Assembly: GCA_022432975.1 (NCBI GenBank)
Contig: CM039502.1
Location: 26,954,996-27,018,995 of the forward strand
Reading direction: 5' to 3'
Source of the DNA: Begonia masoniana
Lineage: Eukaryota > Streptophyta > Magnoliopsida > Cucurbitales > Begoniaceae
Length of the DNA: 64,000 nucleotides
Shown here: piece after piece, positions 3,395 through 64,000 of the stretch
Numbering within the stretch: the stretch's first letter is position 1
How the letters are laid out: every line of letters begins with the position of its first letter
The notes under the pieces: generated by a model
Told to the model about the DNA's origin: nothing
Database searches by the model: none
The model's input: only the letters and a program-made list of their open reading frames with translations
Translations under genes and position numbers: made by a program

Positions 3395-3885
3395 TTTCAA
3401 ATAATTTACGATGCATGCACAAGATATAAGTAATAAAGAGTAGCTACAAAACTTCACCGACACAATAGCTTTTAAATTTTTTTGATAGAACTACCAAAGA
3501 ATTACCGGGCAAATCTTCTTTGGCAGATGCCATGTTAAATACGTTTATATGATATCCCTACATGACAATCTGCCAATGGAGACTTTGCCCAGAAATTCAA
3601 CTGCAATTTAAGCTCAAGAGCTACACATACAGAAGAACGTGGAATGCCTTCTTATTTATGGAGATAAAGAACAAGCATATCCTTTGGAACAATCCTTTTG
3701 GCGTGTCATATTTTTTTGAACCAATTTCATGGTCCTAATATTCTCTTTCAAACTCAAAATAAATGAGTTTTTTTGGCTATGCAATATATGTTATTATTTC
3801 TCGTCGATATTGTTTTTGAGAAGTGCTCAAGATATGAGCAGTGGATTGGTGAAGAACTATGTGTTTCGTTGTTCAGTTATTTTAA
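3395..3885 (+). repeat. Repeat U, copy 1 (second half only)
   Basis: This aligns over about 490 bp with 28450-28940, and its first part aligns with 37330-37480. Shared landmarks are GCATGCACAAGATA, the stretch around GAATTAC followed by TCTTTGGCAGA, GGAGACTTTGCC, ACCAATTTCATGGTCC and GAGAAGTGCTC. I see no conserved protein, terminal inverted repeat or LTR end. It is an old dispersed repeat of unknown class. Confidence 0.7.
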
Positions 3886-8433: not shown

Positions 8434-10512
8434 TGTAACGCCCCGAGTTTTCTGAACCCGGTTTGTCACTCATGAACCTGAATATTACTAAGAAACCTTG
8501 AACCGAATTTAAAACTTCCTTCGGAATTCAAATTTTAACGTTTGATAAAACATGAAGACTTGCAGCGGAAAATCTTCGAGCAAAAATAGAGTTGAGCAAA
8601 ACTATGCAACAGTGTTTGAATGATTGAGTAAAATATTAAGAAAATAATTCAGCCGGAAGGGATAAAGGTTTAAGCGTAAATTACTTAAAATTTAAGAAAG
8701 TCAAACACATCATCCGGAGAGCGAAGTCAACCGGAAGGAACTGGCTTAGAAAATAGAAGGCTTTTCCTAATAACAAAATGACAAAGTTTTGGCTACATCA
8801 TCCGGTCACAAAACGACAAAATACATCCTTCATCTACCGGTGACGTCAGCCGGATGATTTCTTCATCCAATCGACTTTACTCTACATCCACCGGTGACGT
8901 CAGCCGGATGATTTCCTCATCCGATCGACTTTACTCTACATCCACCGGTGACGTTAGCCGGATGATTTCCTCATCCGATCGACTAGACGACAAGTTCCAA
9001 CCTATATCTTTCGTTGGCTTCCACTGAAGACATCTTCCGATAGACAACAAAACATCAACTCAATATCTGCCGGTAGACTTCATCTACCGATAGAGAACAG
9101 AATCACATTTTATCCACTCCATGGCTTACAATCACAACTCTAATTACAGATAAGAGTTTACTCACTTCACTGAAACATTCAGAAATGATTCAAATCGTTG
9201 CATATCTCAAACCCAGTAAAAATCCAGTATTTAAAACTAACGGAATACTAACATCAGAAGGGTCTCAAAATATTTTTTGAAAACATCTAAGCAACTTCTT
9301 TCATTAGAAAGTTTAACATACTCAATTTGAAACCAATGTTCACTAAACCTTCACCACCACAGACACCAATTAAACCGCCCGATCAGCTGCCAGTCTATTA
9401 CAAGGAAGCACTCCTCCAACCAGTCTAGTCCTCAGTAGACTCAGAAAGCACACCTGCTGTCACTTCTTCGCCTACATCACAAAACTCATCTATTAGCCTA
9501 ATGCTAAGCAAGTAAAGCAATGATAAAATGGAAATGCTGAACATAAAACTTCCTAAACATGCAGTTTCTACTTTCTCATCTCAGTTGCATATTCATCGTT
9601 CTGTTAAGATCCCCATGTGAAGTTGGGAGTTGGATCAACTCTCCCAAAGTATAAATCCACTGTCTCATTAAGGGGCGGATTAATTCCCTTAACAGTAAGT
9701 CTGATTCACGTCCTCCGATCCCCCTTTGAAATTGGGAGTTGGATCAACTCTCCCAAAGTATAAATATCCATTGTCTCATTAAAGAGCGGATTAATTCCCT
9801 TAACAGTAAAACTGGTTTACATAACTGTTCAGTACATTCATTCCTTGCTCAACAAACCATGTAAATTCATTTTCGTATAATTTCAGAAATATGATGCATG
9901 ACATGTAAGCACATTCAATAAGTAAAAATCCTACTGTTTTGTGATGTAGGCCCGAAGGCTCAAGCAAACTTCACTTACCTGGATTCCTGGTGGATACTCG
10001 GTTAGGAGTTGCTTCGGAAATGCTCACCTAGAACCATGAACAGAACATTAAGCAAATCCTTACTAATCCCCATTCTAAAGCATTCTGAAACTTAAGTGGA
10101 CCGTTAGGAGTTCTATTCACTAAGCATTTTCCCAAATTTTCACCCCAACCCGAATCTACACTCATTCACAGCATATACGAAATCCCCACATTGCACTCCC
10201 TCAGCTATCTAACTGCTTAAACTTAAGAGAAATGAGGAAAACTTACCTAAGTTGAAGGAGGATCGGGCGAGGAAAATCGTCTAGAGAGCTCGGCTGCTTG
10301 AGCTGAAAACCCGAAGAGAAAATGGTATGAAATTGGTGGCGGCTACTGTGCATTAAACCCAACCCTCTTTCCTTAAATACGTTATCCACTTTTGAAAATT
10401 GTAAATTTACTCTAGTGCCCTTGTCTAGTCATTTAATAACCCTACTTGAATTATTGACTAATCGTACCATTAATAATAAAAAAAAGCTGGTTCGATAGAA
10501 CCGGGTGCTACA
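8434..10512 (-). repeat. 3' LTR of element A
   Basis: It starts TGTAACGCC at 8434 and ends GGTGCTACA at 10512 on the plus strand, giving 2,079 bp. It is 607 bp shorter than its partner at 15187-17872. Nearly all of that difference is 11 copies of a 54-bp unit. It retains about three units at 8830-8985, of which two have an intact TGACGTCA and one reads TGACGTTA. Confidence 0.96.
9471..9950 (-). other. LTR stem module, A 3' LTR
   Basis: Plus-strand arms 9471-9485 (CCTACATCACAAAAC) and 9936-9950 (GTTTTGTGATGTAGG) are perfect 15-bp reverse complements, separated by 450 nt. On the minus strand the 5' arm starts 28 nt after a donor-like GT at 9978. The 3' arm carries the acceptor-like AG. Confidence 0.8.
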
Positions 10513-15183: not shown

Positions 15184-15589
15184 TACTGTAACGCCCCGAG
15201 TTTTCTGAACCCGGTTTGTTACTCATGAACCCGGATATTACTAAGAAACCTTGAACCGAATTTAAAACTTCCTTCGGAATTCAAATTTTAACGTTTGATA
15301 AAACATGAAGACTTGCAGCGGAAAATCTTCGAGCAAAAATAGAGTTGAGTAAAACTATGCAACAGTGTTTGAATGATTGAGTAAAATATTAAGAAAATAA
15401 TTCAGCCGGAAGGGATAAAGGTTTAAGCGTAAATTACTTAAAATTTAAGAAAGTCAAACACATCATCCGGAGAGCGAAGTCAACCGGAAGGAACTGGCTT
15501 AGAAAATAGAAGGCTTTTCCTAATAAAAAACGACAAAGTTTCGGCTACATCATCCGGTCACAAAACAACAAAATACATCCTTCATCTAC

Positions 15590-16346
15590 CGGTGACGTCA
15601 GCTGGATGATTTCTTCATCCGATCGACTTTACTCTACATCCACCGGTGACGTCAGCCGGATGATTTCCTCATCCGATCGACTTTACTCTACATCCCCCGG
15701 TGACGTCAGCGGATGATTTCCTCATTCCGATCGACTTTACTCTACATCCACCGGTGACGTCAGCCGGATGATTTCCTCATCCGATCGACTTTACTCTACA
15801 TCCACCGGTGACGTCAGCCGGATGATTTCCTCATCCGATCGACTTTACTCTACATCCACCGGTGACGTCAGCCGGATGATTTCCTCATCCGATCGACTTT
15901 ACTCTACATCCACCGGTGACGTCAGCCGGATGATTTCCTCATCCGATCGACTTTACTCTACATCCACCGGTGACGTCAGCCGGATGATTTCCTCATCCGA
16001 TCGACTTTACTCTACATCCACCGGTGACGTCAGCCGGATGATTTCCTCATCCGATCGACTTTACTCTACATCCACCGGTGACGTCAGCCGGATGATTTCC
16101 TCATCCGATCGACTTTACTCTACATCCACCGGTGACGTCAGCCGGATGATTTCCTCATCCGATCGACTTTACTCTACATCCACCGGTGACGTCAGCCGGA
16201 TGATTTCCTCATCCGATCGACTTTACATCCGATCGACTTTACTCTACATCCACCGGTGACGTCAGCCGGATGATTTCCTCATCCGATCGACTTTACTCTA
16301 CATCCACCGGTGACGTCAGCCGGATGATTTCCTCATCCGATCGACT
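15590..16346. repeat. 54-bp minisatellite carrying TGACGTCA
   Basis: About 14 units are arranged head to tail. Each unit has CATCCACCGGTGACGTCA followed by GCCGGATGATTTCCTCATCC and GATCGACTTTACTCTA. Most central units look identical. The 8-bp palindrome TGACGTCA is the classic CRE/bZIP (TGA-factor) target and occurs 14 times. One unit near 16217 has a partial internal duplication. Because 54 is a multiple of 3, the array is open in one frame; that frame is not a gene. Confidence 0.97.
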
Positions 16347-16832: not shown

Positions 16833-17312
16833 CCTACATCACAAAACTCATCTATTAGCCTAATGCTAAGCAAGTAAAGCAATGATGAAATGGAAATGCT
16901 GAACATAAAACTTCCTAAACATGCAGTTTCTACTTTCTCATCTCAGTTGCATATTCATCGTTCTGTTTAGATCCCGCTGTGAAGTTGGGAGTTGGATCAA
17001 CTCTCCCAAAGTATAAATCCACTGTCTCATTAAGGGGCGGATTAATTCCCTTAACAGTAAGTCTGATTCACATCCTCCGATCCCTCTTTGAAATTGGGAG
17101 TTGGATCAACTCTCCCAAAGTATAAATATCCACTGTCTCATTAAGGGGCAGATTAATTCCCTTAACAGTAAAACTAGTTTACATAACTGTTCAGTACATT
17201 CATTCCTTGCTCAACAAACCATATAAATTCATTTTCGTATAATTTCAGAAATATGATGCATGACATGTAAGCACATTCAATAAGTAAAAATCCTACTGTT
17301 TTGTGATGTAGG
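16833..17312 (-). other. LTR stem module, A 5' LTR
   Basis: Plus-strand arms 16833-16847 (CCTACATCACAAAAC) and 17298-17312 (GTTTTGTGATGTAGG) are perfect complements. The donor-like GT is at 17339-17340 and the acceptor-like AG lies inside the 3' arm, implying an intron of about 507 nt on the minus strand. Confidence 0.8.
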
Positions 17313-50600: not shown

Positions 50601-50744
50601 TGTAACACCCGGTTTCTATTAACCGATTTACCTTGTTTCATTTTTTTTAGAATGCTTTAAAAGTAAAATTGGGTGATTTTGTGATTAGGTTAATAAGTGA
50701 ATGAGTAAGGACAAAATGGTAAATTGCAATTTATTGTGGATAAC

Positions 50745-50753
50745 GTATTTAAG
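50745..50753 (+). promoter_or_regulatory. TATA-like box of first G LTR
   Basis: GTATTTAAG, 145 bp into the LTR, preceded by GTGGATAAC. It is conserved at the same place in A, E and the second G LTR. Confidence 0.6.
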
Positions 50754-51139
50754 GGAGGGTTTAATGAGGTTTAGCCGCCACTGCCCCCTCATTTTTCCTT
50801 TCTCTGTATTCAGCTCAAGCTCAACAGAGCTCGAGACAATTTTCCCTCCGACTTCTCCAGTGATTTCTCCGATTTAGGTGAGTTCCTCCATTTTTCCTTA
50901 TGACTTGACAGTTAAATAACAGAGGGAGTTCAATGTATGTGTTTTTGGGAGTGTTGTGAATGTGTGTAGTTTCGGGTTTAGTGCAGAATCGGGAATACAC
51001 AAAGATCTGAGCTTCCAAACTAATTTTCTTGAGACTCCTGGATAGTTTAGAATGAAGTTTAACTAATACACTGTCTATGGTTTTAGGTTTGAGCAGAACC
51101 CGAAGTGGTTAGCAACCAAACATTTCCCCAGGAATCCAG

Positions 51140-51623
51140 GTAAGTAAAGTATGCATGTGTCTTCGGGCCTACATCACAAAACATTAGGATTATGCATTAT
51201 GCGAATGAGTTTGTATGACATGCATCATGTTTTTATGAAAGATTACGAAAATGAATTTTCATGTAAAGAATGGTAAGGCATGAACTGAATGTGACAGATC
51301 AGCTATTAAGGGAATTCATCCGCCCTTTAATCGAGTAGAGGATGTAAAACATTGAGAGAATTGATTCTACTTCCAAGGGAACTGAGGGATCAGAATAGCT
51401 ATTAAGGGAATTCATCCACCCCTTAATCGAGTAGAGGATGTATAACATTGGGAGAACTGGTCCCACTCCCAAGGAAACCAAGGGATCAGATCAGTAAACG
51501 AACGAATGTACAACTGAGATGAGAAAGTAGAAACTGCATGTTTAGGTTTTATGTTTCAGCATATCATTTCATTATTGCTTTGCTTGCTTAGCATTAGGCT
51601 AATAGATGAGTTTTGTGATGTAG
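51140..51623 (+). other. Putative leader intron in first G LTR
   Basis: Donor CCAG/GTAAGTAA at 51140 and acceptor TGATGTAG/G ending 51623 delimit 484 nt. The same two sites are kept in A, E, F, D (3' LTR) and J at matching positions. Splicing is inferred from consensus and conservation only. Confidence 0.45.
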
Positions 51624-51624
51624 G
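51168..51624 (+). other. LTR stem module, first G LTR
   Basis: CCTACATCACAAAAC (51168-51182) and GTTTTGTGATGTAGG (51610-51624) are perfect complements over 15 bp with a 427-nt loop. The loop holds two tandem units of about 95 bp (51299-51486), each with a TTAAGGG...CCYTTAA hairpin and CATCC/GGATG complement. Confidence 0.82.
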
Positions 51625-52878
51625 TGTTGAGGTTACTGCAGGTGATTTCCCTGAGTTCACAGACGCATAGATGATGTTGGAGGAGTGCATTCAGGCCACG
51701 ACTTTGTAAACTGATGAGGCGGTTTAACCAGTGTTTTGTACATGTGCATTGTAGTGAAAAACGGGATAGCTGAGTTGTGTTTAAGTTTCGCTGACAGAAT
51801 CAACTTTTAATGTCCTAATCTTAGGTTTGAAAACTCTCTGGTTCAGTCGACAATATTTTCACTTAAGTATGTTGAGTCTTATGACATCAATAGTTTTCAA
51901 TGTTTTGAAACACATTTTGAAATCTTCTAAAAATAGTACCTTGCTGATTTAGCATTGGTTTTTACTGGATTTGAGTAATGTAGGGATTGGAGTCGTTTTC
52001 GAAAGGTTTCATTGAAGCGAATAAGTCCCTTCATAGTAGAGTTGTTTTTGTATAGAGTATGAATTGTTGAAAAATTGCTCTGTTTTCTACCGGTAGTGGT
52101 AATCTATCGGTAGAAGACATCGTTTTCTATCGGTAGAAGATGGTTGTTTTCTACCGGTAGGAGTAGCGTGTTAAATCTATCGGATGGTGTAGTTTATTTC
52201 ATCGGTAGGAAGTTTAGACTTTTGTCGTTTAGCGATCGGTGGATGTCGAGTGCTATAGTTAACGGAAGATGTAGGAAATGATTTTGTCGTTTAGTGATCG
52301 GTGGACATTGTGTATTATGTCTATCGGAAGATGCGGGAAGACTTTTGTCGTTTAGTGACTGGTCAATGTATTCTGTTTGTTTTGTTTTGTGAGTAAAGTC
52401 TTTTGTCGTCTTATGATCGGCAGAGGCTGGATGAACGAATCATCCGGCTGACGTCATCGGCAGATGTAGTAGCAAAACTTGTCGTTTTGCGATCGGCTGA
52501 AGATGGAAGAATAATCCTCCGGCTGACGTCATCGGTAGAGATCCTTCAGTTTTATTTCTGCCCTCTTGTTGACTTTGTTTAGCGGCAAACGAGTTTGACT
52601 TTTGCAACTTTCAAAGTATTTTGCGATTTAAACCTTATTTCTTTTGGCTGAATGTTCCTAAACATCTCAATTAATTATTCAAACATTGTTCTTTAGTTTT
52701 GTTTAACTCTATTTTTGTTTAAATGATTTCCATTGCAAGTATTTAAACGTTTTGAAGTTTTAGAAAAATGTCAAATTTAGACTTTTGCGCAAAATTTTAA
52801 ATTTGGTCCAAAGTTTCTTAGTCATGTTCGAGTTTATGAGTAGCAAACTGGGTTTGGAAAACTCTGGGCGTTACAGTA

Positions 52879-52890
52879 TGGTATCAGAGA
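52879..52890 (+). other. Primer-binding site of first G copy
   Basis: TGGTATCAGAGA, 3 bp after the LTR end, matches the complement of initiator tRNA-Met at 11 of 12 positions. Confidence 0.9.
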
Positions 52891-52958
52891 TATTCGGTTA
52901 AACCGTTCAAAAGATTACTCATCAGTGCCAATCGTTGCATGGAAGTGCTTCAACAACT

Positions 52959-53018
52959 GTAAGTGTTTATTTTAACATTAGCTAATAGATTTTTAAGAGT
53001 GTAATTAACCCTGTACAG
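52959..53018 (+). other. Putative short intron between primer-binding site and gag
   Basis: CAACT/GTAAGTG begins at 52959 and CTGTACAG/G ends at 53018, 12 nt before the gag ATG. CAACTGTAAGT is also present in elements A and D and in the second G copy. At 60 nt it would be near the short limit for plant introns, so this is tentative. Confidence 0.35.
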
Positions 53019-56000
53019 GACTTTAGTATAATGGCTCGACGCCCAGGAAGACCTAGAGTGCCAAGGGAAATGCCAAACCTGAGTGGTGGAGAGGAGCCTA
53101 GTGTGATTAGGCAGCTGACAGAGTTGGTGCGTCAGCAAACCGATTTAGTGCGCCAGCAGTCTGATCAACTAGGAGTACTATTGAACCGAGAGGAACAAGG
53201 AAGTGCCAACTCGGGTTCTAGCAATGAACATTCTGGAGATAGATTCAGGAGATTACGACCACCCACGTTTGATGGTCAGTCGTCTGATCCAGTTATTACT
53301 GAAGGGTGGCTTAGGAAGATTGAAAGTATGTTTAGGTGTGCCAACATAGGAGAAAGAGACAAGGTCACGTTGGCGACATTTCACTTGGCTGGTGAAGCTC
53401 AACTCTGGTGGGAAACAATAGAGACCACCACTGATGTCTTGGCGATGCCTTGGTCGCAATTCAAGGACATTTTCTATGAAAAGTATTTCAACAGTACTGT
53501 CCAAACTGCAAAGAAGTTGGAATTTCTAAACTTGAAGCAGACAGGGTCTGTAGCCGAGTATAGTAGGCAGTTGGAGTCCCTGTCCAGGTTTGCTGGACAT
53601 TTTGCTCATAGGGACGAGGACAAGGTATTCAAATTTGTGCATGGACTGAAGCCAAAAATCTACGGAGGGGTTAAATTTTGCGGTACTAAAGGTTTGACTT
53701 TCAGCGAGGTTGTGTCCACTGCTCTGGAAGTGGAAGAAGCTGAAAGGAAGTGTGCTGGACCAAAAGAGATCCCACAAAAGTCGGTCCAGCCACATCATCA
53801 AAGGGGAATGAAGAGGCCCAGTGAAGGCCAGCATAGCTAAGGAACGGGAAAGAAAGTGCCAGATGCCAGGAAGTTTCCCCTGTGCCCGAAATGCTCGAAG
53901 AGTCACCTGGGTGAATGCAGGTTCAGTTCGAGAAAGTGTTTCAATTGCGAGGAAATTGGACACACATTTAGGGATTGCCCGAAGCCCAGAGTCACCCGAT
54001 GCTTCAACTGTAACAAGGTTGGCCACGTCATTAGGGACTGTCCAGCTCCTAAGAATGGCCCTGCTATGATTAAGCCGAGGATATTCTCCATGATAGAGTC
54101 GGGCGATGATGAGCAGCCTGCTGTTGTGTCAGGTACTATATTAGTCAACTCTATACCTGCTTTTACGTTGATAGATTCTGGTGCAACACATTCATTCATA
54201 GCATCTACTTTTGCTGTTAAGTTAGATGCACAATTTACCCCTTCTATGCATGTGTTTAGTGTTGCTTTACCCTCTGGTGAACGCATGCACTCTAACCAGG
54301 TGATGCTTGACAGTGATGTGTTAGTAGGAAGCGTGAGTCTACCTGCTGATCTCATTATTATGGATATAATGGGATTTGATGTAATCTTAGGAATGGATTG
54401 GTTGTTTAAACATTATGCCACAATCGACTGTAGGACTGGAGTAGTTAGATTCCAACCCCCTGAAGGTTTAAATCATACTTTCCAAGCTTTAAAAAGGAGT
54501 GAGGAAATGTCTGTTATGACTTCGATAAATTGTAGACCCTCACCATGCAGAGAGTACCTATGCTTCTTGGCCAGTGTTCTAGACACACAATTAGTAGGAA
54601 AAGCAACAACCCTAAATTTCTTAATTGTACAAGACTTCCCTGAAGTGTTTTTAGATGACCTTCCTGGTTTACCACCAGATAGGGAAATCGAATTCGTTGT
54701 AGATGTTTACCCCGGCGCTGAGCCTGTGTCTAAAAATCCATATAGTCTAGCACCAACAGAACTTAAGGAATTAAAGAAGCAATTGGAGGATCTGTTGGAG
54801 AAGGGGTTCATACGCCCAAGCTTTTCACCGTGGGGTGCACCTGTCCTTTTTGTCAAAAAGAAAGATGGGTCAATGCGAATGTGCATTGATTATAGGGAAT
54901 TAAATAAGTTAACCGTCAAGAACAAGTATCCATTGCCAAGGATTGATGATTTATTTGACCAGCTTAAAGGGGCACGTGTTTTCTCTAAGATTGACCTTAG
55001 GTCCGGTTATTACCAATTGAAAGTCAAATCTGAGGATATTCCTAAGACTGCTTTTCGCACAAGGTATGGACATTATGAGTTTTTGGTCATGTCCTTTGGA
55101 TTGACAAATTCACCAGCAGCCTTTATGGATCTCATGAATAGAGTGTTTCACAAGTATTTGGATAAGTTTGTCATAGTGTTCATAGATGACATTTTAATCT
55201 ATTCGCGTACTAAGGATGAGCATGCTAGGCACTTGACCTTGGTGTTGGAAGTATTAAAACAGTACCAACTATACGCCAAGTTTTCTAAGTGTGAATTTTG
55301 GTTGGACCAAGTTCACTTTCTATGACATGTTATCTCTGGAGATGGTATATCTATCGATCCAGCTAAGGTCCAAGCAGTTAAGGAATGGCCCCAACCGAAG
55401 AGTGCTACAGATATTAGGAGTTTTCTTGGACTGGCAGGATATTATAGAAAGTTCATTGAAGGATTCTCGAAGATTGCTACCCCCCTTACTAGGTTAACAA
55501 GGAAAAATGTGAAGTATATATGGACTGACGAATGTGAGCATAGTTTTCAGATCTTGAAAAAGAAACTGACCGATGCTCCAATTTTAACCCTTCCAGTTGA
55601 AGATGGTAAGTTTAGCATTTACTGTGACGCTTCCAAAATCGGTCTTGGTTGTGTTCTAATGCAAGATGGAAAAGTAATAGCTTATGCCTCTAGACAGTTG
55701 AAAACACATGAGAAGAATTACCCTACGCATGACTTAGAGTTAGCTGCTGTGGTTTTTGCTCTAAAGATTTGGAGACACTATTTGTATGGACAATCTTGTG
55801 AGATATTTTCAGATCATAAGAGCCTGAAGTATATCTTCACACAGAAGGAATTAAATATGAGGCAACGTCGATGGTTGGAATTTGTAAAGGATTATGATTT
55901 CGAGATTAAGTACCACCTCGGCAAAGCAAATGTTGTGGCAGATGCCTTGAGTAGAGTGACAACATCAGCCTCAGCCATGATTTTAGACATGCCAGTAGCT

Positions 56001-57277
56001 TTAGAGTCTGAATTCCAAAAGTTTAATCTAGAAGAAGTATCCAGTGTATCAGCTATGCTTTCGGCCATATCCTTGAGGCCTACTATTATGGAGAAAATAT
56101 AGGAAGCTCAAAGGAACGACACTGAATGCAATAAGTATAAGTCCTGCATGGACTCTACAGACAAGTCAGATTTTAACTATTCCGCTGATGGAATCCTTAG
56201 GTTTAGAAATAGATGGTTTGTTCCTGCCATTAAGGAACTTCGAGATGAGATTCTTTCTGAAGCACATTCTTCTCGATTTTCTCTTCACCCCGGAAGTACA
56301 AAGATGTACAAGGATCTTAAACAGCATTATTGGTGGCCATGTATGAAAATGAGTGTGGCAGAGTATGTAGGATCATGTTTGTGTTGTCAGCAGATTAAAG
56401 CTAAGCATCAGAGACCCTCAGGAACATTGCAACCTCTACCAGTCCCTGAATGGAAATAGGAACAAATAACGATGGATTTTGTTATGGGATTGCCTAGAAC
56501 AACAAAGGGACATGATGCAATCTGGGTGATAGTTGATCGTTTAGCCAAATCTGCCCACTTTCTACCGATAAAGATGACATACTCGATGGATCAGCTTGCT
56601 GAGTTGTATGTGCATGAAGTTGTTAGACTGCATGGAGTTTCAAGTACTATAGTTTCAGACCGAGACTCTAGATTTACATCTAAGTTTTGGAAGAGTTTGC
56701 ACAAGGCTATGAGGACGCAGCTTAATTTCAGTAGAGCTTTCCACCCTCAAACTGATGGACAATCTGAAAGGACTATTCAAACATTAGAGGATATGCTCCG
56801 TGCATGTGTATTAGACTTTCAAGGTTCATGGAGCAAATACTTGTCCTTAGTTTAATTTTCTTATAACAATAGTTTTCAGACAACAATAGGCATGGCACCA
56901 TACGAGGCATTGTATGGACGAAAGTGCAGATCTCCATTGTATTGGGATGAAGTTGGAGAAGCACGAATGATTGGTCCTGACATTGTGCAGCAGTTAGTGG
57001 AGAAAATTGCCCTCATCCGCCAGAGGATCTTAACAGCTCAAAGCCGACAGAAGATGTAACACCCGAGATATTTTTAAGGAAAATTGGAGATAAAATAAAA
57101 GAATAAGAAAATAGATTGTTTTATTTAATTTAAAAGAAAAGTGAATGGTTTTAGGTTCGGGTATTTTCAGTGAAATTAAGCCGTAGGTTATAATTTAAGA
57201 ACGAGATTTAATGAAATTTGAAATGGTCGGACGTACGGGAGGGCAAAACGGTAAATGAGAATTTGATTAATGGTTAG

Positions 57278-57280
<3 letters not shown>

Positions 57281-57314
<34 letters not shown>
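57281..57314. repeat. (ATT)n microsatellite
   Basis: About 11 ATT units in the U3/leader region of F2, followed by an AATAAT stretch that can pair with it. Confidence 0.95.
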
Positions 57315-57758
57315 TAAAAAATAATAATAAATAAAAATCAACAGAATAGCCGAAGCTATTCTGTCTAGCCCGAGCGCGAGAAGCAGGGGAGGGGAGAGGG
57401 AGACGACGAGCGACGTCCCTCCTCCGACGAGCACCGGCGAATCCGACGTTCTCCGACCAGACGACGGCGACGAGCTGGGCCCGGTTCTCTCCACGCACGA
57501 ACCGATCAGGTAAGCTCGGTTCCTCCCCTGTTTCTGTTCTGTTCGGGGCTGTGGATCGCCGAGCTGCTAGAGCTCCGATCACCGGCCTAGATTGGCCGCC
57601 TCCGGCATGGGTTTGCCGACCCTGGTCCGGTTTTGGTTGCCTGGCTGTGAAGAGCCCGTTTTGGGCGAAAATACAGTGAAGCCTGATTTAGGGCATTTCG
57701 GTTTTGGTGGGTGTAGCTCGGGATTTTGGTTAGATTATTCAAATTGAAGGTGTGGGGC

Positions 57759-57782
57759 GGGGGGGGGGGGGGGGGGGGGGGG
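57759..57782. repeat. 24-base poly-G run
   Basis: A homopolymer of 24 G (preceded by GTGGGGC) inside F2; its length is likely to be uncertain in sequencing. F1 has no equivalent run. Confidence 0.9.
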
Positions 57783-58335
57783 TCGTTTGGTGAGGAATTG
57801 AGTGAGAATTGATGGAAAATCAAAAATGGGGATTTTTCGGGTAAGGGCAGTTCGGGTTTTTGCTATTTTGACCTAGCTAGGGTAATTTGTTTTAAAATTC
57901 CTTTTGGCCGGTTAAAATAGGCTATTAGAGGAGTACGTGGCCGCTGGAATCGTTCGATTCCAATATTCGACGCGAAAGTTACGCGCGTTTGAAGTTTCAG
58001 GTCGGTTTTTACTGAACCTCAATTAGTGGCCCGTTTAGTTAGATTTTAGTTGGATTAGGCTAAAAATAGTAGTTTGAGAGTAATTGGTGAATGTAGACTT
58101 AATTTTAATGGAGTTGAAGTTGGACGGTAAAATTTACATAAAAATCGGGTTTTGTGTTTTGGTGAGAGAAAGGAGTTTGAAGTATGGTTAGTTTTAGTTA
58201 GAAAATTTATGAGTGAATTGCTAAGTTATTTTCTATAATTGATAGGTTATCAGACGAGTGAATTGATCGTTAGAGGTGAGCACCGTAAAGCCGAGCAGTC
58301 ATGTAAGTAGAGGAAGTTTGTGTTTTGCCTTCGGG

Positions 58336-59385
58336 CCTACACCACGGAACGGTAGGTTTGTTGTTTGTTGTTTGGTTGTCTTCTTTGTTGGTTGAGCATT
58401 GTTGGTTGATTGCTTTGCTTTGTTTTGGTCAGGTCTGGTTAAGTATTTGTGCGACTTGCATCATAGTGTGAAATGCATCGTAGTTTATAGTCTCAGGGGA
58501 TGTTTGTTTGTTTGGTGTTGTATTGTTGACTTGTGTTGTTGTGTTGATGGTTTCGTGTGGTATTGCATATTTAAAGCATGCATCATGGTATAACACGTTA
58601 GAAATGATTAGTGGCATTGTTTGGCATTGTGAGCATGAATGTAATCAGATAAAGTAAAATGTAAAATGCATCTCGAATAGGGTGACTTGTCGGGCTGAGG
58701 TTGCTGGTAGTAGCACCCCGAGGGGAACTCTATGAGAGATGACCGGCTAAAACACGAGATCCTGATTAGTGTGCCTTGTCGGGCTGAGGTTGCTGGTAGT
58801 AGCGCCTCGAGGGGAGCTCTATGAAGGATGATTTGTTAAAATACGAAATTCTGAATAGTGGGCCTTGTTGGGCTGAGGTTGCTGGTAGTAGCACCCCGAG
58901 GGGACCTCTGTGAAGGATGACTGGCTAAGATACGTAAATGTAAAATGCATCTCGAATAGGGTGACTTGTCGGGCTGAGGTGCTGGTGTGTAGCACCCCGA
59001 GGGGAACTCTATGAGAGATGACCGGCTAAAACACGAGATCCTGATTAGAGTGCCTTGTCGGGCTGAGGTTGCTGGTAGTAGCACCCCGAGGGAACCTCTA
59101 TGAAGGATGATTGACTAAAATACGTAAATGTCGTGATTAAAGCAACGATCAGCAAACGAACACAACTGAGAGTTAGAAACTGCATTGTGTTAGGTTGATT
59201 GCATTGTGATGTTGTTGAGTTGCATTGGGAAGTTGTGTTGTTGCGTTGCGTTGTCGTGTTGAGCGTGTGTGTGTGGTTGTGTTAGGGTTGTGTGAGGGTT
59301 AATTGTGGATTGCATTTGTTTATATTTATTATCCCTTACTTGCTAAGCGTAAGCTTACGTGTGTGTGTGTGTTCCGTGGTGTAGG
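58336..59385 (+). other. LTR stem module, F2
   Basis: CCTACACCACGGAAC (58336-58350) and GTTCCGTGGTGTAGG (59371-59385) are perfect 15-bp complements with a loop of about 1,020 nt. The 5' arm starts 33 nt after the donor-like GT at 58303, and the acceptor-like AG is at 59383-59384. Confidence 0.82.
58670..59130 (+). repeat. Tandem hairpin-rich units in F2
   Basis: Five units of about 85-95 bp, each with CTTGTCGGGCTGAGGTTGCT, GGTAGTAGCACCCCGAGGGG and then a variable end such as ACCGGCTAAAACACGAGATC. They are the reverse of the F1 units. Confidence 0.88.
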
Positions 59386-60556
59386 TGACGACAGGAGTAC
59401 AGGTTAAAGCTTGAGGAAAGCTAGGATTGGGACGCAGTCGTTGATGTACGCGGTATGCCGGTGCGGGCAGTTGTCGGGGCGTCTCGACCATGGTCTTCGG
59501 AGATGTGGGGTTTAATATTTTGGTGGTTATTGTAAATGTTTATTGTTGTATATAGTTAAGTTAAGGGTGATAGGTCGCCCTAACCTGTGGATTTTCTGCA
59601 TTTGAGGATGTTAGTATTTTAGTTTCCCATTTTTCTATTATTAGAGATTTTGTATGCTGGATAGTGAGTGATTAGCTGAGTAAGAATATTCTGGATCTGG
59701 TTGGGAATTGTTTTGTGTGCAGGTACTTAGCATTTTTGGAGGAGCCATTCTCAGGCGTTACTCTGCCGAAATTTTTGGGGAAAACGCCGTGGTGCTTAGC
59801 GGTTAGGAGTAAGGGTAATTAGCGAGTCTAGGCCTAGTTTAAATTATGTTTCAACGTGGGCTTGGTTAGCAAAGTAGCGCACCGAGCTAGGGTGGGTTCG
59901 GGGGCGTTACAGAAGAGCTATGCCGACAAGAGGTGTAGAGAATTAGAGTTTGAAGTAGGTGATGAAGTTTTTCTTAAGATATCACCATTTAAAGGAGTTG
60001 TGAGATTTGGAAAGAGAGGCAAGTTGAACCCCAGGTTCATTGGACCGTTCACGATTCTGAAGAGGATTGGAAGAACAGCTTACCACTTACAACTACCAAC
60101 TTCTATGGAAGGGGTACATGATGTATTCTACGTTTCTATGTTGAAAAAGTGCATAAGGGATCTAAACCAAGTCATGGAACAGCAAGACTTTGAGATTCAT
60201 CCTACCCTTGCCTATGAAGAGAAACCAGTAAGGATCTAAGATTATGCAGTGAAGGTATTGCGCAACAAGGAAGTTCCATTGGTGAAGGTATTGTGGCGTA
60301 ACCAGAATATTGAGGAGACAACTTGGGAGCGCTAGCAAGACATATTGGACCAACATCCAGAATTATTCAGGTACTGAATTTTGAGGACAAAATTCTTTTA
60401 AGGATGGTAGATTGTAACAACCGGTTTCTATTAACCGATTTACCTTGTTTCATTTTTTTTAGAATGCTTTCAAAGTTAAATTGGGTGATTTAGTGATTAG
60501 GTTAATAAGTGAATGAGTAAGGACAAAATGGTAAATTATAATTTATTGTGGATAAC

Positions 60557-60565
60557 GTATTTAAG
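60557..60565 (+). promoter_or_regulatory. TATA-like box of second G LTR
   Basis: GTATTTAAG, 145 bp inside the LTR, as in the first G LTR. Confidence 0.6.
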
Positions 60566-60978
60566 GGAGGGTTTAATGAGGTTTAGCCGCCACTGCCCCC
60601 TCATTTTTCCTTTCACGGTATTCAGCTCAAGCTCATCAGAGTTCCAGGCGATTTTCCCTCCCACTTCTCCAGTGATTTCTTCGATTTAGGTGAGTTCCTC
60701 CATTTTTCCTTATGACTTGACAGTTAAATAACAGAGGGAGTGCAATGTATGTGTTTTTGGGAGTGTTGTGAATGTGTGTAGTTTCGGGTTTAGTGCAGAA
60801 TCGGGAATACACAAAGATCTGAGCTTCCAAACTAATTTCCTTGAGACTCCTGGATAGTTTAGAATGAAGTTTAACTAATACACTGTCTATGGTTTTAGGT
60901 TTGAGCAGAACCCGAAGTGGTTAGCGACCAAACATTTCCCAGGAATCCAGGTAAGTAAAGTATGCATGTGCCTTTGGG

Positions 60979-61435
60979 CCTACATCACAAAACATTAGGA
61001 TTATGCATTGTGCGAATGAGTTTGTATGACATGCATCATGTTTTTATGAAAGATTACGAAAATGAATTTTCATGTAAAGAATGGTAAGGCATGAACTGAA
61101 TGTGACAGATCAACTATTAAGGGAATTCATCCGCCCCTTAATCGAGTAGAGGATGTAGAACATTGGGAGAATTGATCCCACTCCCAAGGGAACTGAGGGA
61201 TCAGAATAGCTATTAAGGGAATTCATCCGCCCCTTTATCGAGTAGAGGATGTATAACATTGGGAGAACTGATCCCACTCCCAAGGGAACCGAGGGATCAG
61301 ATCAGTAAATGAACGAATGTACAACTGAGATGAGAAAGTAGAAACTGCATGTTTAGGTTTTATGTTTCAGCATATCATTTCATTATTGCTTTGCTTCCTT
61401 AGCATTAGGCTAATAGATGAGTTTTGTGATGTAGG
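60979..61435 (+). other. LTR stem module, second G LTR
   Basis: CCTACATCACAAAAC (60979-60993) and GTTTTGTGATGTAGG (61421-61435), perfect 15-bp complements; the loop holds two tandem units at about 61108-61300. Confidence 0.82.
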
Positions 61436-62638
61436 TGTTGAGGTTACTGCAGGTGATTTCCCTGAGTTCACAGACGCATAGATGATGTTGGAGGAGCGCA
61501 TTCAGGCCACGACTTGGTAAACTGGATAGCTGAGTTGTGTTTAAGTTTCGCTGACAGAATCAACTTTTAATGTCCTGATCTTAGGTTTGAAAACTCTTTA
61601 GTTCAGTCGACAATGTTTTCACTTAAGTATGTTGAGTCTTATAACAGCAATAGTTTTCAATGTTTTGAAACACATTTTGAAATCTTCTGAAAATAGTACC
61701 TTGCTGATTTAGCATTGGTTTTTACTGGATTTGAGTAATGTAGGGATTGGAGTCGTTTTCAAAAGGTTTCATTGAAGCGAATAAGTCCCTTCGTAGTAGA
61801 GTTGTTTTTGTATAGAGTATGAATTGTTGAAAAATTGCTCTGTTTTCTACCGGTAGTGGTAATCTATCGGTAGAAGACATCGTTTTCTATCGGTAGAAGA
61901 TGGTTGTTTTCTACCGGTAGGAGTAGCGTGTTAAATCTATCGGATGGTGTAGTTTATTTCATCGGTACGAAGTTTAGACTTTTGTCGTTTAGCGATCGGT
62001 GGATGTCGAGTGCTATAGTTAACGGAAGATGTGGGAAATAATTTTGTCGTTTAGTGATCGGTGGACATTGTGTATTATGTCTATCGGAAGATGCGGGAAG
62101 ACTTTTGTCGTTTAGTGACTGGTCAACGTATTCTGTTTGTTTTGTTTTGTGAGTAAAGTCTTTTGTCGTCTTATGATCGGCAGAGGCTGGATGAACGAAT
62201 CATCCGGCTGACGTCATCGGCAGATGTAGTAGCAAAACTTGTCGTTTTGCGATCGGCTGAAGTTGGAAGAATGATCCTCCAGCTGACGTCATCGGTAGAG
62301 ATCCTTCAGTTTTATTTATGCCCTCTTGTTGACTTTGTTTAGCGGCAGACGAGTTTGACTTTTGCAACTTTCAAAGTATTTTTCTATTTAAACCTTATTT
62401 CTTTTGGTCGAATGTTCCCTAACATCTCAATTAATTATTCAAACATTGTTCTTTAGTTTTGTTTAACTCTATTTTTGTTCAAATAATTTCCGTTGCAAGT
62501 ATTTAAACGTTTTGAAGTTTTAGAAAAATGTCAAATTTAGACTTTTGCGCAAAATTTTAAATTTGGTCCAAAGTTTCTTAGTCATGTTCGAGTTTATGAG
62601 TAGCAAACTGGGTTTGGAAAACTCTGGGCGTTACAGTA

Positions 62639-62650
62639 TGGTATCAGAGA
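62639..62650 (+). other. Primer-binding site of second G copy
   Basis: TGGTATCAGAGA, 3 bp after the LTR end, identical to that at 52879. Confidence 0.9.
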
Positions 62651-62790
62651 TATTCGGTTAAACCGTTCAAAAGATTACTCATCAGTGCAAATCGTTGCAT
62701 GGAAGTGCTTCAACAACTGTAAGTGTTTATTTTAACATTAGCTAATAGATTTTTAAGAGTGTAATTAACCCTGTACAGGACTTTAGTATA

Positions 62791-64000
62791 ATGGCTCGAT
62801 GCCCAGGAAGACCTAGAGTGCCAAGGGAAATGCCAAACCTGAGTGGTGGAGAGGAGCCTAGTGTGATTAGGCAGCTGACAGAGTTGGTGCGTCAGCAAAC
62901 CGATTTAGTGCGCCAGCAGTCTGATCAACCAGGAGTACTATTGAACCGAGAGGAACAAGGAAGTGCCAACTCGGGTTCTAGCAATGAACATTCTGGAGAT
63001 AGATTCAGGAGATTACGACCACCCACGTTTGATGGTCAGTCGTCTGATCCAGTTATTAATGAAGGGTGGCTTAGGAAGATTGAAAGTATGTTTAGGTGTG
63101 CCAACATAGGAGAAGGAGACAAGGTCACGTTGGCGACATTTCACTTGGCTGGTGAAGCTCAACTCTGATGGGAAACAATAGAGACCACCACTGATGTCTT
63201 GGTGATGCCTTGGTCGTAATTCAAGGACATTTTCTACGAAAAGTATTTCAACAGTACTGTCCAAACTGCAAAGAAGTTGGAATTACTAAACTTGAAGCAG
63301 ACAGGGTCTGTAGCCGAGTACAGTAGGCCGTTCGAGTCCCTGTCAAGGTTTGCTGGACATTTTGCTCACACGGACAAGGTATTCAAATTTGTGCATGGAC
63401 TGAAGCTAGAAATCTACAGAGGGGTTAAATTTTGCGGTATTAAAGGTTTGACTTTCAGCGAGGTTGTGTCCACTGCTCTGGAAGTGGAAGAAGCTGAAAG
63501 GAAGTGTGCTGGACCAAAAGAGGTCCCACAAAAGTCGGTCCAGCCACATCATCAAAGGGGAATGAAGAGGCCTAGTGAAGGCCAGCATAGCCAAGGAACG
63601 GGAAAGAAAGTGCCAGATGCCAGGAAGTTTCCCCTGTGCCCGAAATGCTCGAAGAGTCACCTAGGTGAATGCAGGTTCGGTTCGGGAAAGTGTTTCAATT
63701 GCGAGGAAATTGGACACACATTTAGGGATTGCCCGAAGCCCAGAGTCACCCGATGCTTCAACTGTAACAAGGTTGGCCACGTCATTAGGGACTGTCCAGC
63801 TCCTAAGAATGGCCCTGCTATGATTAAGCCGAGGATATTCTCCATGATAGAGTCGGGCGATGATGAGCAGCCTGCTGTTGTGTCAGGTACTATATTAGTC
63901 AACTCTATACCTGCTTTTACGTTGATAGATTCTGGTGCAACACATTCATTCATAGCATCTACTTTTGCTGTTAAGTTAGATGCACAGTTTACCCCTTCTA
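62791..64000 (+). pseudogene. gag-pol: Second G gag-pol (runs off window)
   Basis: Starts with MARCPGRPRVPREM. Stops are at 63166-63168 (TGG to TGA) and in the following WSQF (CAA to TAA, about 63217). A 6-bp in-frame deletion near 63370 removes two residues relative to the first copy. The position that is TAA at 53838 in the first copy is still CAA here. Gag, the finger CPKC...GEC, both knuckles and the protease start [11 protein letters not shown] are present before the window ends. Confidence 0.93.

Follow-up and report, generated by a model that had tools for sequence, protein, structure and literature searches.

A covarying RNA fold at the predicted splice sites of a leader intron in the LTRs of Begonia masoniana retrotransposons

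Why LTRs that in part barely align should each carry two short arms that are reverse complements of one another is the question raised by this locus. The window, i.e. the whole stretch of DNA analysed, is 64 kb long (C1:26,954,996-27,018,995 of a 795-Mb assembly) and is packed with nested Ty3/gypsy elements that have RT, RNase H, integrase, SH3_Tf2-1 and a weak C-terminal chromodomain match. The RT, integrase and chromodomain place the elements among the Ty3/gypsy chromoviruses; the chromodomain is weakly supported because its score (Chromo PF00385, E 0.0023, residues 692-737 of the A ORF, 18.3 bits) is under the Pfam cut-off of 25.1. The best 120 RT relatives are all plants where an organism name is attached. 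Tekay/Del is the candidate clade name. Tekay/Del chromoviruses, for which PMC6317226 was the source of this lead, are alike in having a Ty3/gypsy pol with the domains listed above; unlike for the elements described here, no LTR intron is mentioned in the available portion of that paper. A term search for "intron" in the available text of a paper on the Del-type Retrosat-2 (PMC3485330) gave no use of the word. A viral contig collection contained no relatives in an RT search and no matches in two DNA pattern scans. In a genome contig collection four contigs with distant RT relatives were found (L001-L004), and arm motifs with fewer than three mismatches were absent from them. Since the searches outside this plant genome gave no arm-bearing relatives, all results rest on one genome.

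All arm pairs named in the original prediction were located, with the mismatches it had described. The arms are about 15 nt each and are separated by about 330-1,040 nt (331-1,026 between arm starts in the 35 records introduced below). Perfect 15-bp pairs, given here with the 5' arm first, are found in G1 (51168-51182 and 51610-51624) and G2 (60979-60993 and 61421-61435) on the + strand and in A1 (9936-9950 and 9471-9485) and A2 (17298-17312 and 16833-16847) on the - strand. The arms of F2 (58336-58350 and 59371-59385, +) also pair perfectly, with letters differing from those of G and A. F1 (31777-31791/30751-30765, -) has one G-U in place of a Watson-Crick pair, E (7608-7622/7165-7179, -) one mismatch plus one G-U, and J (44610-44596/44153-44139, -) retains 12 of 13 pairs, two of them G-U. 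The pairing in D requires a 1-nt bulge, and a different half has been lost in each of the two LTRs: D1 (38746-38760/39236-39250, +) has retained CCTACACC in the 5' arm and has a decayed end in the 3' arm, and D2 (47743-47758/48234-48248, +) has retained GGTGTAGG in the 3' arm and has the bulge and one decayed base in the 5' arm. Arm-like sites with at most three mismatches occur 17 times in the window, compared with 2.65 ± 1.60 times in shuffled sequences. The LTRs of A, E and G align with each other at 67-77%. The F LTR, which had been said to be barely alignable to G and D, indeed gave no alignment of at least 200 bp to the G, A or D LTRs (E<=1e-10).

The first LTR of element G spans 50601-52875 (+), has the ends TGTAACACCC...GGGCGTTACA and is repeated from 60413 onwards. 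The element (50601-64000) is apparently tandem or recombinant and consists of an LTR, an internal region, an LTR (60413-62635) and internal sequence again. Inside its 3' part, at 57055-59911, is an F-family LTR without internal region that looks like a solo LTR, with a start placed from the TGTAACACCC motif; on the - strand there is a relative at about 32873-30224. A 54-bp tandem array in the 3' part of the A-family LTR has about 12 or more copies in A2 (15583-16346) and about three in A1 (8831-8984). A MIR399 precursor match at 3495-3602 on both strands (73.3 bits on -, 64.4 on +, cut-off 57), in DNA that is plant-like, was the only Rfam match at gathering scores in the whole window. No Rfam matches at E<=1 were obtained in 51000-51800, where a short-loop model could miss a 450-nt insert.

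The arms have a constant position relative to splice signals. All seven window copies that were found by arm sequence alone have a (G/T)GTAAGT donor about 30 nt upstream of the 5' arm, and in the same seven the 3' arm terminates in a UGUAGG-type acceptor, with the variant UAUAGG in E. In element orientation the window copies read exon end, GTAAGT, about 30 nt, 5' arm, variable stretch, short hairpin and 3' arm. The exon ends before GTAAGT are CCAG, TCAG, ACAG or GAG; the donor context of F2 is decayed (CAT^GTAAGT, where ^ marks the predicted junction).

In G1 the arms are part of the second of two predicted introns in the leader. Leader intron 1 (50878-51086, +; donor ATTTAG^GTGAGT, acceptor TTTTAG^GT) is placed by its position from the intron loss described below, and is followed by leader exon 2 (51087-51139, +) and by leader intron 2 (51140-51623, +; CCAG^GTAAGT ... 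TGTAG^G), which bears the structure. The order within intron 2 is donor CAG^GTAAGT, a hairpin (P1), the 5' arm, a long variable loop, a further hairpin (P3) at a branch-point-like motif, and the 3' arm, the end of which is the 3' splice site UGUAG^G; the helix between the arms is designated P2. When intron 2 of G1 is folded, its 5' arm has a pairing probability of 1.00. The 3' splice site is predicted at A51622-G51623, and G51624, still within the 3' arm, is the first base of exon 3.

The two local hairpins adjoin the arms. P1 has a stem of 3 to 5 bp and ends at the 5' arm, as in GCC-UUCG-GGC, GGCC-CUUAA-GGCC and GGCC-GAUU-GGCC; in G1 it is found just 5' of the arm at 51159-51168 (+) with the tetraloop UUCG. 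Its stem is at least 4 bp in 16 of 35 records and at least 3 bp in 31, and a stem of at least 4 bp was obtained in 19 ± 6% of shuffled flanks. P3 is a 5-bp hairpin with the strands TTAGC/GCTAA, TAAGC/GCTTA, TAAGT/ACTTA, TGAGC/GCTCA, TGAGT/ACTCA or TGAGA/TCTCA. Its 3' strand is a branch-point-like CTNA located 6-13 nt upstream of the 3' arm, and in G1 (51588-51602, +; TTAGC-ATTAG-GCTAA) it includes most of a branch-point-like CTAAT. The first six pairs of P2 (CCUACA/UGUAGG) are invariant, partly because they were used as anchor. The loop between the arms contains a tandem array in 18 of 30 introns, with a unit length that differs from 5 to 190 bp (e.g. 51301-51490). A UAGG motif recurs in many families just after the 5' arm (51184-51187), in and beside the P3 loop (51595-51598) and at the end of the 3' arm; CCUA of the 5' arm could pair with any of these copies, a possible alternative hairpin. 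A divergent group of three loci (L049, L053 and L054) has short introns (331-386 nt between arm starts) in which P2 is kept, P3 is only 4 bp with a mismatch and the frame of exon 3 is open for 24-32 codons.

The structure is abundant. The pattern GGTAAGT-N(20-36)-CCTACAYYRY gave 25,930 + 25,871 = 51,801 matches in the 795 Mb of the genome, and the reversed control gave 5 + 0. An unselected sample, drawn with the arms disregarded, consisted of twenty 10-kb stretches of C1 at even steps and four stretches of other contigs. The donor and arm pattern was found 17 times in these 24 stretches, 14 times with 1.4 kb of room downstream, and in all 14 testable blocks there was a GTAGG block behind a branch-point-like motif that paired with the 5' arm at 12-15 of 15 positions. 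The 5' arm starts 28-36 nt from the donor in these 14 random copies. The partner was required to have a GTAGG end behind a YTNAY motif, a requirement shared by the shuffled control. When positions 7-15 of the 5' arm were shuffled, at least 12 pairs were obtained in 13% of cases on average and in 43% at most, and the observed mean of 13.57 pairs was reached in none of 2,000 shuffle runs.

A targeted sample of 28 further stretches was taken from the pattern matches, picked for differing P1 and 5' arm sequences. A 3' block was present in 16 of these loci, 12 of which passed the P3 anchor; the four dropped at that anchor (L039, L041, L046 and L051) pair at 6-8 of the 9 positions 7-15, and false 3' blocks in the same introns pair at 2-5 of 9. 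The remaining 12 loci comprise three with a decayed 3' arm end (L042, L045 and L048), one found in continuation sequence (L063/L068, pairing 14/15) and eight without a 3' block in the sequence examined, including the continuations of L038, L050 and L055. Among late loci, kept outside all counts, L069 and L071 pair at 13/15 each and L070, a short sequence, gave nothing.

For the covariation analysis the 5' and 3' blocks were located by separate anchors that avoid the tested positions, giving 35 records of which 30 are distinct. The strict detector needs its anchors (GGTAAG, NCTACA, TGTAGG and those of P3), and E, D1, D2 and F2 are therefore absent from the set. The records were chosen by donor-type and acceptor-type anchors and are excluded as evidence on constant arm position. 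At P2 positions 7-15 the matched arms are paired at 82.2%, compared with 69.0 ± 1.6% for swapped partners (0 of 20,000 permutations); with Watson-Crick pairs only, the values are 71.5% and 49.8 ± 2.4% (again 0 of 20,000). Positions 2 and 5 of P3 are paired at 91.7%, compared with 66.2 ± 3.6% when swapped (0 of 20,000), and position 5 alone gave 4 of 20,000. These swap tests bear out the claim that the arms differ between families and that the partner arm changes to match, i.e. that the changes are compensatory.

A tree-aware test of the R-scape type, as proposed in the original prediction, was applied to the 30 distinct introns. A G-statistic with average-product correction was used, and in the null the parsimony changes of each column were placed randomly on the tree. 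Significant covariation (E<0.05) was found for 6 of 20 stem pairs (P2.7, P2.12, P2.14, P2.15, P3.2 and P3.5) and for 1 of 760 non-pairs, the latter a link between adjacent columns that belong to P2.14 and P2.15. The result was unchanged with a second tree. P2.8-11 and P2.13 were not significant among the 30 introns (P2.11, E 0.09-0.12). P2.1-6, P3.1, P3.3 and P3.4 hardly vary, and this invariance is not used as evidence since it is partly imposed by the anchors. P2.7 is TA in 17 introns, CG in 10, AT in two and T-G in one; P2.12 is AT in 11, GC in 10 and CG in two, with five wobbles and two mismatches; P3.2 is AT in 15, GC in 12 and TA in two, with one mismatch. P2.15 covaries but is often a non-standard pair, G-A in 11 of 30. 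On the LTR sense strand G-U wobbles outnumber A-C (30 vs 10), which points to pairing in the sense transcript rather than in the DNA. The pairing between the arms is thus real and covaries between families, and the swap test, the tree-simulated null and the wobble bias together support the proposed selection on base pairing in the transcript.

When whole introns were folded by energy, P2 exceeded a probability of 0.5 in only 14 of the 30, and P3 did so in 12. The acceptor AG is paired with some partner at a probability above 0.8 in 21 of 30. The P2 probability was 0.03 for J and 0.38-0.61 for D1, D2 and E. This modest support may mean that helpers or kinetics matter, or that model energies are unreliable over such lengths.

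That intron 2 is spliced in nature is indicated by an element on C9. A genome search with the spliced-junction pattern of the A family (acceptor UGUAG^G) gave six matches at up to three mismatches, of which four have three mismatches and two are exact; the exact ones lie on one strand of C9, separated by 6,085 bp. Both C9 stretches (L072 and L073) align to the A1 LTR in three blocks, A1 1-271, 483-536 and 1040-1205; the middle block, 100% identical to A1, is the counterpart of leader exon 2 of G1. Intron 1 (CTTAG^GTAAGT...CTAG^GTGAGC) and intron 2 (CCAG^GTAAGT...TGTAG^G), the counterpart of the structured intron of G1, are missing from both LTRs. The aligned parts of the LTRs are identical at 472 of 481 positions and look like one element. 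On this A-family element the removal is precise from GT to AG, as expected of a spliceosomal intron. Donor and acceptor share AGGT, an ambiguity of 4-5 nt, and the GT-AG rule was therefore used to fix the exact junction base. The alternative, two independent deletions across the shared AGGT bases that were passed to both LTRs, was judged far less likely than splicing. Since both introns are absent at the predicted sites, the intron appears to have been spliced with its acceptor inside the 3' arm, and the sequence alignment identifies the acceptor of intron 2 as the last AG of that arm, UGUAG^G. RNA without the fold was evidently reverse-transcribed at least once, in this element. The intron-less element comes from a targeted search of one family (A) in one genome. 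In 304 kb of local sequence (the unselected stretches and the window) 52 keys gave no spliced junctions of either type; the 240 kb of unselected stretches included in it contain 17 intron-bearing 5' blocks.

Coding functions of the leader exons were also considered. Translated in one phase, exon 3 just after the acceptor (51624-51670 in the window, and at other loci) gives a short acidic tail; the stop is at codon 14 in 19 of 35 records. The exon 3 anchor distances are congruent to 2 mod 3 in 20 of 24 anchor-bearing records (of 35), and mismatches at the third position number 45 compared with 27 and 19 at the others (14 sequence pairs). Constant phase and third-position mismatches are a hint of coding in the sequence, and a protein-coding exon 3 is kept as a lead. 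Three findings speak against it: another frame is open for at least 12 codons almost as often (23/35 vs 27/35), exon 2 has no codon bias (15/14/12, seven pairs), and in the spliced C9 copy the reading frame from the first ATG of exon 1 meets a stop at the junction (judged by eye).

The interpretation that we favour, by a slight degree, takes the arms as the two strands of P2, a long-range helix within a conserved RNA fold of the spliceosomal leader intron, and holds that this fold slows splicing by hiding branch point and acceptor. It builds on the covariation, on the position at splice signals and on the loss of both introns in one natural element. In the fold, the partner of the acceptor AG is a stretch that closely follows the donor, and a separate hairpin covers the branch-point-like motif; since the 3' arm ends in UGUAG^G and P3 holds the motif, acceptor and motif are both paired when the RNA is folded. 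Hidden in this way, the putative branch point and the acceptor would be used slowly or in a regulated manner, and part of the RNA would retain the intron. The 5' leader is the template for R and U5, so that any spliced genome loses the intron from both LTRs. Intron-retaining RNA alone would copy the intron back into both LTRs at reverse transcription, and spliced RNA, with its shorter leader, would be mRNA. Since tens of thousands of LTRs retain the intron, the template of reverse transcription must normally be unspliced RNA, and a fold that slows splicing would serve exactly to keep it so. Among the three roles that had been offered for the arms, leader splicing with use of the acceptor is the best supported, because the C9 element places the acceptor at UGUAG^G inside the 3' arm; that the fold hides the acceptor is what we infer from its geometry, and genome-RNA packaging is less favoured. 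In the available part of a study of Arabidopsis, single-strandedness of branch sites goes together with 3' splice site recognition (PMC7784297), and in yeast introns structure is depleted around canonical splice sites, as stated in the accessible text of PMC12350175. Points against masking are that a stem near the splice sites could also aid splicing by proximity, that splicing through the fold does occur, as in the C9 element, and that P2 has energy support in only 14 of 30 introns and intron loss was seen in one element.

A helper of proximity would be a P2 that joins the donor to the branch-point and acceptor region and so promotes splicing of a long, repeat-filled intron, like a zipper stem of yeast. 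The short distance from donor to 5' arm in the 14 random copies and a 3' arm that ends at the acceptor whatever the loop length agree with such a role, which we nevertheless regard as unlikely. Zipper stems are widespread in yeast, but their definition requires 20 nt or more between the end of the stem and the branch point downstream of it (both from the available portion of PMC12350175), whereas here the branch-point-like motif, paired in P3, is followed by the 3' arm, which includes the acceptor AG in its pairing. On this criterion, with the branch point located by motif, a yeast-type zipper stem was rejected. Decoy masking, in which splicing would use an AG about 5-20 nt further downstream because P2 covers the first one (UGUAG), is very improbable: AG^GTGAG-like sites do occur downstream in many families, and structures over cryptic sites are known in yeast (same portion of PMC12350175), but the sole natural spliced copy found uses UGUAG^G, and the 52 keys gave no match for either junction type in the local sequence.

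Retroviral packaging signals sit downstream of the major donor, and the fold could likewise be a packaging, dimerisation or export signal that is confined to intron-retaining RNA and marks it as genome RNA. In favour of such a signal, splicing removes the whole fold, and the unselected stretches hold 17 intron-bearing 5' blocks, with no spliced junction there or in the window (52 keys). The C9 element without introns 1 and 2 was nevertheless reverse-transcribed, so the fold is not strictly required, and a packaging role leaves unexplained why one arm must be the acceptor; we consider it distinctly unlikely. It is hardly credible that the arms have no function at all, whether they are explained as an inserted element's terminal inverted repeats or as inverted repeats inherited from a common ancestor. 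The arms are short, those of A and G pair perfectly, and many of the copies are young and related, but the compensatory changes involve at least three standard pair types (P2.7 TA/CG/AT, P2.12 AT/GC/CG and P3.2 AT/GC/TA), they stand against a tree-aware null, the position at splice signals is constant in the window copies and a further hairpin covaries. MITE terminal inverted repeats in particular were rejected on the constant donor distance and the AG^G end of the 3' arm in 7/7 window copies found by arm sequence alone.

Compared with known systems, the fold that we propose to slow splicing differs in place and geometry. In HIV-1 and MLV splicing from a leader donor is inefficient and unspliced RNA is the genome. 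The elements described here are like them in the leader donor, in a presumed low rate of splicing and in unspliced RNA as genome, but here both splice sites are inside the LTR, splicing deletes LTR sequence and the acceptor pairs with sequence just after the donor. The zipper and downstream stems of Saccharomyces cerevisiae, as described in the available part of PMC12350175, are likewise intronic long-range helices a few tens of nucleotides after the donor, and there too structure alters the effective distances in a spliceosomal intron; unlike in those stems, the 3' arm here holds the acceptor AG, the motif has a hairpin of its own and the fold is common to many transposon families. Plant LTR retrotransposons are generally without introns, Ogre and EVADE being notable exceptions, according to the accessible portion of a 2025 review (PMC12786077). 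BARE1 has a facultative intron in the gag region and a division between RNA pools (PMC3735527, in part), and spliced isoforms are reported for Tyran and Varan of sunflower (PMC7730604, in part). All five are, like the present elements, plant LTR retrotransposons with partly spliced RNA, but the introns of Ogre, EVADE and BARE1 are in the internal coding region and not in the LTR leader, and no conserved fold is described for any of the five in the available portions of these papers and of PMC6317226. Among the matches listed from the open-licence literature, titles and abstract openings describe no LTR leader intron with a conserved fold. Structure-controlled splicing is already known; what would be new here is the LTR leader as its place, and its geometry.

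In this abundant group of chromoviruses the introns are located within the LTR, and a conserved fold covers the acceptor. Such a location is paradoxical, because reverse transcription of spliced RNA removes the intron from both LTRs, as was found once, on C9; the RNA that serves as genome must therefore stay unspliced, and the fold may be what ensures this. In the fullest form of this reading, on which we are evenly divided, P1-P2-P3 would be a previously undescribed structured-RNA family present in tens of thousands of LTRs and acting as a splicing switch in cis, a bistable fold that, by engaging branch point and acceptor, splits the transcripts into intron-keeping genomes and spliced mRNAs, so that the intron of the LTR is not lost when the RNA is reverse-transcribed. 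How retrotransposon RNA is divided between translation and replication, a long-standing question, becomes directly testable in these elements, with intron-less LTRs as a natural marker for counting the failures.
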